A stretch of 64,000 nt of DNA. Source: Bacteroides sp. ET71. GTDB taxonomy: Bacteria; Bacteroidota; Bacteroidia; Bacteroidales; Bacteroidaceae. This document shows, piece after piece, positions 25,375 through 33,909 of this stretch. The number at the start of each line of letters is the position of its first letter. Position 1 is the first letter of the stretch. A program made the translations under genes and the position numbers. Where the stretch lies: assembly GCF_023336905.1 (NCBI RefSeq), contig NZ_JAMBLS010000002.1, positions 186,001 through 250,000 of the forward strand. The letters run 5' to 3'. Below the pieces are notes generated by a model. That model saw only the letters and a list, made by a program, of their open reading frames with translations. It ran no database searches and was not told the DNA's origin.

Positions 25375-25426
25375 TTTATATTTTCATTCTTTGAGAAGAT
25401 GCTTTCAGGTTCTCTCACTATATTTG
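25375..25426 (+). promoter_or_regulatory. malQ promoter with putative SusR operator
   Basis: TTTATATTTTCATTCT (25375-25390) lies 28 nt upstream of the -7 box TATATTTG (25419-25426). The identical 16-mer with identical spacing occurs at susB, and a TTTATA-N4-CATTC relative occurs at susA. There is no well-spaced -33 TTG, which fits an activator-dependent promoter. The ATG is 32 nt after the -7 box. Confidence 0.65.
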
Positions 25427-25457
25427 TACATTCAAATTACTAATACCGAAACATAAT

Positions 25458-28130
25458 ATGACTATTACCTTTCGAATTCAGTATCACACCACATGGGGTG
25501 AAAGCCTCCGTGTTCTTATTGACGACGGTTTTGAAGTAGAACTGTCCACTGTGAACGGCATCCTATGGCAAGGCCAAAGCAACTATCAGCCCGCTTCAAC
25601 CGAAGCCCCGGTTTCTTACCGGTATGCAGTCTACCGCGACAACCGTTGCATCCGCCAAGAGTTTGGTGCTATTCCCCATCTGTTTTGCCCCTCTGGGAAC
25701 AAAGATGTACATTATCTATTGCAAGACACATGGCGCGACCTGCCTCTTGCCTCCTATCGGTTCAGCTCAGCATTCAGCACCACAGAGAATGACAGCCGCC
25801 CCCAAATGCCTCTCCCCGTTGAAAGCAACACGCAGGTCATCTTCCGTGTACTCTGCCCTTCGGGTAACACCCACAAACGGACATTAGGCCTGGTAGGCAA
25901 CTGCAAGGCATTAAGCAATTGGGCGGCATCCGCTCCCGTCCGTCTTAGCGAAGTGCGTCCTAATGTATGGCAGGTGGCTTTGGACGCAGCTTCCCTGCCT
26001 CCCACTTTTGAATATAAATATGTAAGCTTATGCCCGGACAATGACAGTGTAATCGAATGGGAAACCCATGATAACCGCACATCCACAGTGCCGGCACTGC
26101 AACCGGGCGAGGTTTATGCAGCTCCAGAAGAAGAGGCTTTCTTCGCCGGAGAAAACTATAAGATAGCAGGTTGTGCCATACCTGTATTTTCTCTTCGCTC
26201 AGAAGGGAGTTTTGGCGTAGGAGACTTCGGAGACCTGAAAACATTCATAGGTTGGGCAGCAGATACACACCAGCGGGCCGTGCAGATTCTCCCCATCAAT
26301 GACACAACAATGACAGAGACTTGGACCGACTCTTATCCATACAGCAGCATCTCCATTTATGCTTTCCACCCCATGTATGTCGATTTACGGCAACTTCCCT
26401 CTCTGCATGACAGCGAAGCGGCCATCACCTTCGAACAAAAAAGGAAAGAACTGAACGGGCTGCCGCAAGTGGATTACGAAGCTGTGAACCGTTGGAAAAG
26501 GGATTATCTGAAAGCCATATTCCTGCAAGAGAAAGAAACCATTCTTGCTTCTGAAGGTTACCAGGATTTTTACCATGACAATGCCGAATGGCTGCGCCCA
26601 TATGCTACTTTCTGCTACTTACGCGACCGGTTCCATACGGCAGACTTCAACCAGTGGCAAGAGTACAGCACCTATCGCTCTGAGATTTCGGAAGAGTTCT
26701 GCTCGCCTGAAAGCGAAGCCTACACGGAAACCTCTTTCCATTGCTTCGTGCAATATCTGCTGCACATACAATTATTGGCAGCTTGCGACTATGGTCGCCA
26801 ACGGGGCGTTATTGTAAAAGGAGACATCCCCATCGGCATCAGCCGCACCAGTGTAGAAGCATGGGTAGAGCCTTATTACTTCAACATGAACGGACAAGCC
26901 GGTGCTCCTCCCGATGCATTCTCGACCAAAGGACAGAACTGGGGATTGCCCACCTATAACTGGAAGGTGATGGAGAAAGACGGCTACCTGTGGTGGCAAC
27001 GCCGCTTCCGCAAGATGGCCAACTACTTCACGGCCTACCGCATCGACCACATCCTGGGATTTTTCCGAATCTGGGAGATACCTACCCACTCCGTACACGG
27101 GCTGTTGGGGCAGTTTGTCCCTGCCTTGCCGATGAGCGTGAACGAAATCCAAAGCTATGGGCTATATTTCCAGAAGGACTTCATGACACGCCCGTTCATC
27201 AACGATTTCATGCTCAACCAGATGTTCGGCCCTCGTGCCCAAGAGGTCCGGGATACTTTCGTACAACACCTGCACGACGACATCTATGCCATGCGTCCGG
27301 AATTTGACACGCAAAGAAAGATAGAAAGCTACTTTGCCGGAAAGGACGATACGGACAGCGTCAACTTGCGAGAGGGCCTTTATGCCTTGGTCAGCGATGT
27401 GCTGTTTATCCCCGACCGGGACAATCCGGAGATGTACCATCCGCGCATCGCCGTGCAAAACGACTATATCTACCGCCAGCTCAATCCGCAGGAGAAGGAT
27501 GCCTTCAACCGCCTGTACAACGACTATTATTACCGCCGCCATAACCAGTTCTGGTACCAGGAGGCCATGAAGAAACTGCCCATCCTGACCCAATCGACCT
27601 CTATGCTGGTGTGCGGCGAGGACTTGGGCATGGTGCCCGAATGCGTGCCTTGGGTCATGGAGCAACTGCAAATCCTGTCGCTCGAAATCCAACGGATGCC
27701 CAAACGCCCGGAAGATGAATTCGGGCACGTCGAATCTTATCCATTCCGCTCCGTCTGCACCATCGGGACGCACGACATGAGCACCTTCCGGGGCTGGTGG
27801 GAAGAAGACCGCAACGTGTCGGCACGCTTCTTCTACCACGAACTGAAGCATTGGGGAGAGCTGCCCCAGCATGCACCGGGGTGGCTCTGCGAAGATGTCA
27901 TCCGAAGACACCTGTACAGTCCTTCCATGCTGTGCATACTGACGTGGCAAGATTGGACTTCGATGGACGAAGCCCTACGCAACCCGGACATCGACATCGA
28001 GCGTATCAATGTCCCTGCCAATCCACACCACTACTGGCGCTGGCGCATGCACCTCACACTGGAAAACCTGATGCAACAACACGACTTCAATGACAAAATC
28101 CGCCGCATGATTGACGAGAGTGGACGGTAA
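25458..28130 (+). CDS. malQ: 4-alpha-glucanotransferase (GH77) with N-terminal starch-binding domains
   Basis: The 890-residue amylomaltase transfers maltodextrin units between chains and releases glucose in the cytoplasm; there is no signal peptide. The N-terminus (about residues 1-230) has two CBM20-type domains (FRIQYHTTWGESLRVL; VIFRVLCPSGNTHKRTLGLVGN), as in plant DPE2-like and Bacteroidetes enzymes. The GH77 barrel carries YRIDHILGFFRIWEIP (nucleophile Asp530), CGEDLGMVPE (acid/base Glu721) and GTHDMSTFRGWW (Asp773). Length fits the long, CBM20-bearing MalQ class. It is divergent from the pullulanase and probably co-transcribed with the MFS transporter, which has no visible promoter of its own. 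Confidence 0.93.
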   Translation: MTITFRIQYHTTWGESLRVLIDDGFEVELSTVNGILWQGQSNYQPASTEAPVSYRYAVYRDNRCIRQEFGAIPHLFCPSGNKDVHYLLQDTWRDLPLASYRFSSAFSTTENDSRPQMPLPVESNTQVIFRVLCPSGNTHKRTLGLVGNCKALSNWAASAPVRLSEVRPNVWQVALDAASLPPTFEYKYVSLCPDNDSVIEWETHDNRTSTVPALQPGEVYAAPEEEAFFAGENYKIAGCAIPVFSLRSEGSFGVGDFGDLKTFIGWAADTHQRAVQILPINDTTMTETWTDSYPYSSISIYAFHPMYVDLRQLPSLHDSEAAITFEQKRKELNGLPQVDYEAVNRWKRDYLKAIFLQEKETILASEGYQDFYHDNAEWLRPYATFCYLRDRFHTADFNQWQEYSTYRSEISEEFCSPESEAYTETSFHCFVQYLLHIQLLAACDYGRQRGVIVKGDIPIGISRTSVEAWVEPYYFNMNGQAGAPPDAFSTKGQNWGLPTYNWKVMEKDGYLWWQRRFRKMANYFTAYRIDHILGFFRIWEIPTHSVHGLLGQFVPALPMSVNEIQSYGLYFQKDFMTRPFINDFMLNQMFGPRAQEVRDTFVQHLHDDIYAMRPEFDTQRKIESYFAGKDDTDSVNLREGLYALVSDVLFIPDRDNPEMYHPRIAVQNDYIYRQLNPQEKDAFNRLYNDYYYRRHNQFWYQEAMKKLPILTQSTSMLVCGEDLGMVPECVPWVMEQLQILSLEIQRMPKRPEDEFGHVESYPFRSVCTIGTHDMSTFRGWWEEDRNVSARFFYHELKHWGELPQHAPGWLCEDVIRRHLYSPSMLCILTWQDWTSMDEALRNPDIDIERINVPANPHHYWRWRMHLTLENLMQQHDFNDKIRRMIDESGR

Positions 28131-28147
28131 ATGATAATTTATTCATA

Positions 28148-28286
28148 GTTGACAAGGGAACAAGTTGACAAGGGAACAAGTTTTTGTTGTGGTTAACGAG
28201 TTGACAAGTTAACAAGAAGACGAGGGACGAGTTAACAAGGAATAAGTTCTGTCCTTGTAGTCTTGTTAACTCGTCCCCTCGTCAAC
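28148..28286. repeat. GACAAG/ACGAG iterated hairpin element, copy 1
   Basis: Repeated GTTGACAAG, GGAACAAG and GTTAACAAG words are followed by a long stem. GACGAGGGACGAGTTAACAAG (about 28219-28239) pairs with CTTGTTAACTCGTCCCCTCGTC (28262-28283) with one bulge. It lies between malQ and the MFS gene. Relatives are at 29684-29763 and 36161-36244. Confidence 0.75.
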
Positions 28287-33776: not shown

Positions 33777-33780
33777 ATAA

Positions 33781-33793
33781 TTTCTATTTTTCA
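33781..33793 (+). promoter_or_regulatory. Possible auxiliary SusR-like site upstream of susB
   Basis: TTTCTATTTTTCA begins 77 nt upstream of the primary susB site, about one helical turn more than the 66-67 nt seen at malQ and susA. The match is weak and the region AT-rich. Confidence 0.25.
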
Positions 33794-33857
33794 AAAGGAA
33801 GCATTTTAATAACTAACTGACGAACAACCTCTTATCTAAAAACTGTTACTTTATAAT

Positions 33858-33909
33858 TTTATATTTTCATTCTACAAAGATCAGTTGTATTTTCAAGAGC
33901 GTATCTTTG
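33858..33909 (+). promoter_or_regulatory. susB promoter with putative SusR operator
   Basis: TTTATATTTTCATTCT (33858-33873) is identical to the malQ site and lies exactly 28 nt upstream of the -7 box TATCTTTG (33902-33909). No well-spaced -33 element is present. The -7 box lies at the frame's upstream start (33907), so translation must start at ATG 33961. Confidence 0.65.

Follow-up and report, generated by a model that had tools for sequence, protein, structure and literature searches.

In Bacteroides thetaiotaomicron, SusR activates susA and susBCDEFG (PMC3878776, crediting D'Elia and Salyers 1996), and the regulator has been described as specific to Bacteroidetes (PMC3878776). Its DNA sites had, by the account of that same study (Ravcheev et al. 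2013), been uncharacterised until then; the study predicted for SusR (BT3705) and three SusR-like paralogues a direct repeat with its two sites 67 or 77 bp apart; its main text names neither malQ nor pullulanase, and its section 7 and further passages give no distance to the -7 box of the promoter. Within the literature searched, parts of PMC6874557, PMC7366714, PMC10936149, PMC10316084 and PMC11633381 included, no footprint or operator study of SusR was found. The same metabolic genes can be placed under other control, the sus loci of B. fragilis and B. uniformis having LacI-type regulators and no SusR (PMC11633381, on acarbose). Here we analyse a stretch of 64,000 nucleotides from Bacteroides sp. 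ET71 (contig NZ_JAMBLS010000002.1, positions 186,001 to 250,000; hereafter the window), in which a short element, TTTATA-N4-CATTC, recurs before the starch genes malQ, susA and susB. The locus shares with the Sus regulon of B. thetaiotaomicron the regulator family and the order susR-susA-susB-C-D-E, and differs from it in adjoining pulA, malQ and a gene for a transporter of the major facilitator superfamily (MFS), and in that malQ bears the site.

The element had been interpreted in a preliminary description of this DNA as the binding site of SusR. The element is real, yet it constitutes only the promoter-proximal half of the site, the complete unit being a direct repeat of two boxes. A distal box, which that description had overlooked, lies upstream of each proximal box, at 66 bp in malQ, 67 bp in susA and 77 bp in susB, and reads in its longer form TTTATATTTTCATATA, TTTATATTTTCGACCG and TTTCTATTTTTCAAAA, respectively. 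Scored against the eleven letters TTTATATTTTC, these boxes match at 11, 11 and 9 positions and are in each case the top match 40-130 bp upstream; under a cruder comparison of 16 letters the susB box (9/16 at 77 bp) falls behind a match of 10/16 at 84 bp. The positions of the proximal elements, and the distance of exactly 28 nt from each of them to a TAnnTTTG box, were confirmed at the three promoters (Table 1). The absence of a well-spaced -33 TTG was likewise borne out: in the 40 nt inspected ahead of each -7 box, no promoter has a TTG at 19-21 nt, a TTG ending 25 nt before the box in malQ and 14 nt before it in susB, and susA having none. The susR promoter was found, as had been claimed, to carry a well-spaced TTG of its own and no SusR site, at most four of 11 letters matching at gaps of 26-31 nt (checked in the window only; the "susR" control upstreams of relatives were placed from an overlong start of the open reading frame, ORF, and are a poor control).

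On this evidence, and on the comparisons that follow, the element is very probably that half of a two-box SusR operator which lies nearer the promoter; for this operator, susA and susB would be inherited targets, malQ and probably pulA having been added in this lineage. The SusR site itself is already known as a prediction, since a two-box direct repeat with spacings of 67 or 77 bp was put forward in 2013 (PMC3878776). The likeness to that operator concerns layout and spacing: the direct repeat is found in the window and in relatives, with 67 bp in susA, 77 bp in susB and 66 bp in malQ, and with 66 and 67 bp in the relatives too. By comparison with the main text of that study, what appears to be added here is the fixed distance between the proximal box and the -7 box, together with the sites before malQ and, probably, pullulanase in this lineage.

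Conservation was assessed in 28 loci obtained from a scan with the window SusR, many of them with the full or partial order pulA, malQ, MFS, susR, susA, susB, susC, susD; L001-L005 were left out of the promoter tallies, and L011 of those for pulA, whose start it does not cover. Each upstream was searched freely, at any gap of 15-45 nt, for its best pair of a box and a perfect -7 box. A search in relatives had been proposed in the preliminary description, and it returned a gap of 28 nt in all 22 susA upstreams, the window included. The same gap was found in nine of 15 malQ upstreams (30 in three, 29 in one, 39 in one, none in one) and in ten of 20 susB upstreams (26 in one, none in nine). Among sites whose proximal box matched at least 8/11 letters, a distal box, counted at the same threshold, was present in 22/22 for susA (67 bp in 17, 66 bp in five), in 13/13 for malQ (all at 66 bp) and in 8/13 for susB (77 bp in six, 66 bp in one, 67 bp in one). 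Four susB genes that lack a site (L007, L015, L017 and L019) lie only about 24-30 nt from susA; because of this short distance the two genes can share a transcript there, and a separate susB promoter would be superfluous. A relaxed pattern of two boxes and a -7 box, built from the very loci in which it was then sought, occurs at 33 distinct places in the 531,685 bases of the 28 loci and the window, all of them before susA, susB or malQ, and nowhere in the reversed sequence of those loci. Beyond these loci, the best site lay at a gap of 28 nt in 12 of 13 regions flanking SusR genes of genomes of the family (L110-L122), and beside the best SusR-family matches of seven genomes of the genus (L103-L109) no convincing TTTATA-type site was found (best 20/28 letters, or none).

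The refuting outcome envisaged beforehand, many unrelated promoters with the element at the same spacing, was not encountered in this genome. Without mismatch, TTTATA-N4-CATTC occurs three times in the window, always ahead of starch genes, and nine times in the genome of 3.6 Mb, compared with five for the reversed pattern. None of the six exact copies outside the locus has a TAnnTTTG-like box (5/6 letters) at 28 nt, and their best second box matches at 7/11 letters, where the window reaches 11, 11 and 9. For want of a box at 28 nt and of a good distal box they were rejected as members of the regulon; four of the six fall within open frames longer than 150 codons. With up to two mismatches there are 41 places in the whole genome against 21 for the reversed pattern. 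After removal of the two boxes of malQ, the one of susB and four places inspected earlier, the remaining 34 yielded no perfect -7 box at 26-30 nt, one at 31 nt, and no distal box of at least 9/11. These genome-wide controls, together with those based on shuffled sequences, rule out a chance origin of the element. The MFS gene, susC and susD were also rejected as carriers of a SusR site, as none of their 50 upstreams has a box of at least 8/11 paired with a perfect -7 box; looser pairs at other gaps do occur there.

The distribution of the site follows that of SusR. When the 30 best susA matches in 119 genomes of the genus were compared, the site was found before all ten susA with 79% identity or more (the window included) and before all 14 of 64-70% identity, with a gap of 28 nt in 22 of these 24 and of 29 nt in two; it was found before none of the six distant homologues of about 53% identity. 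A susR match was found in 20 of the 24 loci with the site, some of which are incomplete, and in none of the six distant ones, where no susB match was found either. The six have instead, about 100 nt before the start, a GCAAACGTTTGC-like palindrome that is absent from the 24 closer homologues. In many Bacteroidaceae (part of L063-L095, L147-L152 and L174) such a palindrome stands about 100-120 nt before malQ or a distant susA. It looks like a LacI-type operator and would presumably be bound by a LacI protein; no paper on it was found in the literature searched. In two of the loci concerned (L150 and L152), the four neighbouring ORFs scanned by Pfam encode TPR, dehydrogenase and aldolase proteins, with no LacI among them. 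The report of LacI-type regulators in sus loci that lack SusR (PMC11633381) fits a palindrome that takes the place of the SusR boxes, as it does before many malQ genes and distant susA homologues.

For malQ, the proposed membership of the regulon is supported in this lineage, where the two-box site is found, and unsupported in other lineages. Across 21 genomes of the genus, leaving aside the malQ fragments L172 and L176, the SusR site precedes nine of nine malQ genes of at least 69% identity and none of 13 below 57%. Both genes thus show the site near a SusR gene and its absence without a close SusR (susA 24/24 versus 0/6, malQ 9/9 versus 0/13). In a wider comparison, malQ upstreams were taken in three groups of 20 according to SusR status, one upstream being too short to score. 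Where the genome had no SusR match, the two-box site was found in none and the LacI-like palindrome in nine (this group of 20 includes the upstream that could not be scored); where it had only distant SusR-like proteins (at most 46% identical), the counts were 0/20 and 12/20. A SusR site was accordingly absent from all 39 usable upstreams of genomes without a close SusR. Nine malQ genes (L162-L170) of relatives with a susA of 64-70% identity have neither a SusR nor a LacI-like site. SusR control of malQ would therefore be specific to a lineage, and as such is well supported in this one; no report joining malQ to the SusR regulon was found in the literature searched.

Other observations on malQ concern its copies and its relationships. 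Two genomes hold two malQ genes each, G292 (L153 and L174) and G323 (L158 and L175): the copy of the window type has SusR boxes in both, and the second copy is preceded by a LacI-like operator in G292 and by neither site in G323. The malQ of the window is 60-78% identical to that of another genus (g13) and 51-56% identical to the sample of its own genus, although a genus-wide search showed that closer relatives within the own genus do exist; the window SusR, mostly 53-59% identical to that of g13, likewise resembles it as much as or more than the sample of its own genus. An exchange of the cluster at 23081-31391 between genera is possible.

The case of pullulanase is less clear. The 12/16 match on the minus strand, 28 nt from its -7 box, was located where it had been claimed; membership in the regulon is favoured by the proximal box and not by the distal box, which is weak, nor by a -33-like TTG of its own, on which the preliminary description had claimed nothing. 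When a motif matrix trained only on the susA, susB and malQ sites was applied, ten of ten pulA upstreams scored above their shuffles (p 0.005-0.015), the site of L012 lying about 270 nt from the gene; one of 11 scorable control upstreams (susC of L022) also reached p 0.015. The match might nevertheless be incidental and pulA, driven by its own -33/-7 promoter, might stand outside the regulon, which we regard as a possible though clearly less favoured explanation. It is in keeping with the TTG 19 nt ahead of the -7 box, with the match of only 7/11 proximal letters, with a distal box that is clear in only two of ten upstreams (L006 and, more weakly, the window, where the 7/11 match at 77 bp ties with one at 44 bp), and with a free gap scan that gave 29 nt in four of ten, scattered gaps in five and none in one. 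It has to contend with the ten upstreams that beat their shuffles under a model trained on other promoters, and with a proximal box at 28-29 nt in nine of ten at a looser threshold, which leave control of pulA by SusR probable.

The presumed activator was examined at the level of the protein and of its paralogues. The window SusR scores 545 bits against NF058541, above the curated cut-off of 480; its listed ORF (29778-31625, from a TTG at 31625) probably starts too far upstream, the methionine at 31391 following a good promoter. A structural model of its last 160 residues has a helical region followed by a helix-turn-helix (predicted local distance difference test score, pLDDT, of 86), and the top-probability Foldseek matches of the C-terminal model are LuxR-type domains (about 0.8-0.99). 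Three further SusR-like genes with strong scores are present in this genome, and their neighbourhoods were scanned without regard to letters for two 12-mers at least 10/12 alike, 30-130 bp apart (101 spacings), the nearer one before a -7 box. Over 74,001 bases and 42 TAnnTTTG boxes, three pairs were found, one in each neighbourhood and all at a spacing of 67, with none at any other spacing; they read ACTACTTTATTG/ACTACTTTTTTA, CGTCCACTTTTT/CATCCACTTTCT and CACTTACCAATC/CATTTACCAATC, and their spelling differs from that of the SusR boxes. The same scan of the pooled loci L006-L031 peaked at 66 (11 pairs) and 67 (eight), with at most three pairs at each other spacing; in the more distant L032 and L033 and in L103-L105, every pair that it gave had some other spacing (78 in one case). 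In 40 SusR-like neighbourhoods of relatives (548,901 bases, 702 boxes), which we chose from the listed matches and some of which come from closely related genomes, 16 pairs had one of the six spacings 66-68 or 76-78 and 53 had one of the 95 others, compared with one and 34, respectively, in the reversed control; at least two of the 16 (L222 at 66 and L225 at 78) are unlike the rest.

Co-occurrence, a geometry common to the SusR paralogues and the match of the protein itself all point to SusR, whose presumed role as the binder of the boxes is well supported by the first two. That a different regulator, of the LacI, hybrid two-component or Crp-like type, would bind the element appears very improbable: in other Bacteroidaceae, LacI-like operators do precede homologues of malQ and susA, but no upstream in the malQ and susA tallies combines the palindrome with a SusR site, the boxes lack palindromic symmetry, the site occurs together with SusR, and the SusR paralogues have the same spacing. 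Equally improbable is an UP-element-like or architectural (IHF/HU-type) element that aids RNA polymerase directly without SusR, which would suit an A/T-rich box upstream of core promoters without a well-spaced -33 TTG, but not its absence from the 50 MFS, susC and susD upstreams and, in the right register, from the further places with a single box that were inspected in the genome, nor its pairing at 66, 67 or 77 bp and the recurrence of that geometry with other letters at SusR paralogues.

Several results weigh against the two-box SusR operator as proposed here. In 18 genomes whose SusR is at least 53% identical, only seven of the 20 malQ upstreams have the two-box site, one has the LacI-like palindrome and 12 have neither, and the malQ gap is 30 rather than 28 nt in L015, L017 and L019. 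For susB, a recognisable SusR site is absent in six of 20 cases, including L012 and L020, where about 190-210 nt separate susA from susB, and a good distal box is missing from five of the 13 susB upstreams that have a proximal one. Those six susA homologues that lack a site are probably unlinked paralogues rather than orthologues, which weakens the contrast drawn from them; some genomes hold both susA types, so that the comparison is one between homologues and not strict orthologues. Judged by E-value, the resemblance to LuxR domains is weak (0.11 at best in Foldseek; 0.049 for GerE). When the window itself is scanned without regard to letters, only malQ (66) and two pairs at unexpected spacings (49 and 69) come up, susA and susB falling below its threshold because their two boxes differ too much, and only 14 of the 40 SusR-like neighbourhoods have a recognisable pair, 26 having none. 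Finally, 67 bp correspond to 6.4 turns at 10.5 bp per turn, so that the two boxes do not fall on precisely the same face of the helix.

Under the two-box operator, SusR would act as a membrane-bound sensor of maltose or malto-oligosaccharides with a C-terminal LuxR-like helix-turn-helix, which would recognise TTTATATTTTC-type boxes arranged as a direct repeat with a spacing of 66-67 or 77 bp. In Bacteroides, transcription usually starts a few bases after TAnnTTTG. This would put the proximal box at roughly -40 to -55 and the distal box at roughly -107 to -122 (for susB, another ten upstream). From this place just upstream of the -33 position, 28 nt short of the -7 box, SusR bound to the proximal box would contact or hold RNA polymerase and so make up for the lack of a usable -33 element. 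The 10-bp change between spacings of 67 and 77 would keep the relative phase of the boxes, and DNA bending or two dimers may be needed, given that they are off-face. MalT of Escherichia coli is an example of an activator that substitutes for a missing -35 element. SusR would resemble it in the site just upstream of the core promoter, in the LuxR-like DNA-binding domain and in serving a maltose system, and would differ from it in being membrane-bound and in its two boxes 67 or 77 bp apart.

Two further sites were noticed beside SusR-like genes. In L037 (contig C33 of this genome; 11213-11336 and 11430-13489), a 67-bp pair with a -7 box precedes a TPR/OmpA ORF and a divergent ORF that, by eye only, resembles DUF3575, possibly a non-glycan target of the SusR-like regulator there. 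On the minus strand of C3 of this genome, at about 193572-193690, a SusR-like gene is closely followed by a 67-bp pair with a -7 box, in a promoter without an obvious gene, as the adjoining M16 peptidase gene runs the opposite way.

Table 1. Boxes, promoters and genes of the starch locus, in coordinates of the window
Feature	Position	Strand	Remarks
malQ proximal box TTTATATTTTCATTCT	25375..25390	+	letters located in the window
susA proximal box TTTATAAAAACATTCC	31849..31864	+	letters located in the window
susB proximal box TTTATATTTTCATTCT	33858..33873	+	letters located in the window
pulA proximal box TCTCTATTTTATTTCT	25152..25167	-	12/16 letters
malQ distal box TTTATATTTTC	25309..25319	+	66 bp upstream of proximal box; also 66 in relatives
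susA distal box TTTATATTTTC	31782..31792	+	67 bp upstream of proximal box
susB distal box TTTCTATTTTT	33781..33791	+	77 bp upstream of proximal box; 9/11
pulA putative distal box TTTCCATTCTTGTTCC	25229..25244	-	77 bp upstream; weak
malQ -7 box TATATTTG	25419..25426	+	starts 28 nt past proximal box
susA -7 box TACATTTG	31893..31900	+	starts 28 nt past proximal box
susB -7 box TATCTTTG	33902..33909	+	starts 28 nt past proximal box
pulA -7 box TATCTTTG	25116..25123	-	28 nt from proximal box
susR -7 box TACATTTG	31417..31424	-	TTG 21 nt upstream; no SusR site
pulA, type I pullulanase	23081..25078	-	TIGR02104, 790 bits
malQ, 4-alpha-glucanotransferase (GH77)	25458..28130	+	Pfam PF02446, TIGR00217
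MFS sugar transporter gene	28314..29675	+	no SusR-type site upstream
susR, presumed activator	29778..31391	-	start at signal-peptide-like Met 31391; NF058541
susA, GH13 cyclomaltodextrinase/neopullulanase-like	31923..33776	+	Pfam
susB (GH97)	33961..36150	+	start set at ATG 33961; Pfam/NCBIfam
susC, susD, SusE-like gene	36397-42341		downstream of susB; Pfam/NCBIfam

Through malQ, and probably pulA, the capture of glycans and the cytoplasmic processing of malto-oligosaccharides would be switched on together. The comparison of malQ genes suggests that control of a central enzyme was handed over between two kinds of regulator. A broader proposal, on whose truth we are evenly divided, is that the SusR family uses a common ruler, with like boxes about 67 or 77 bp apart and the near one about 28-32 nt from the -7 box, the letters varying with the paralogue, and that in this lineage SusR captured malQ and pulA, replacing control of the LacI type. 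If so, targets of the SusR family could be found without knowledge of their motif. The register to the -7 box provides predictions of footprints and spacings that can be tested, together with a letter-free search for the targets of other SusR-like regulators.

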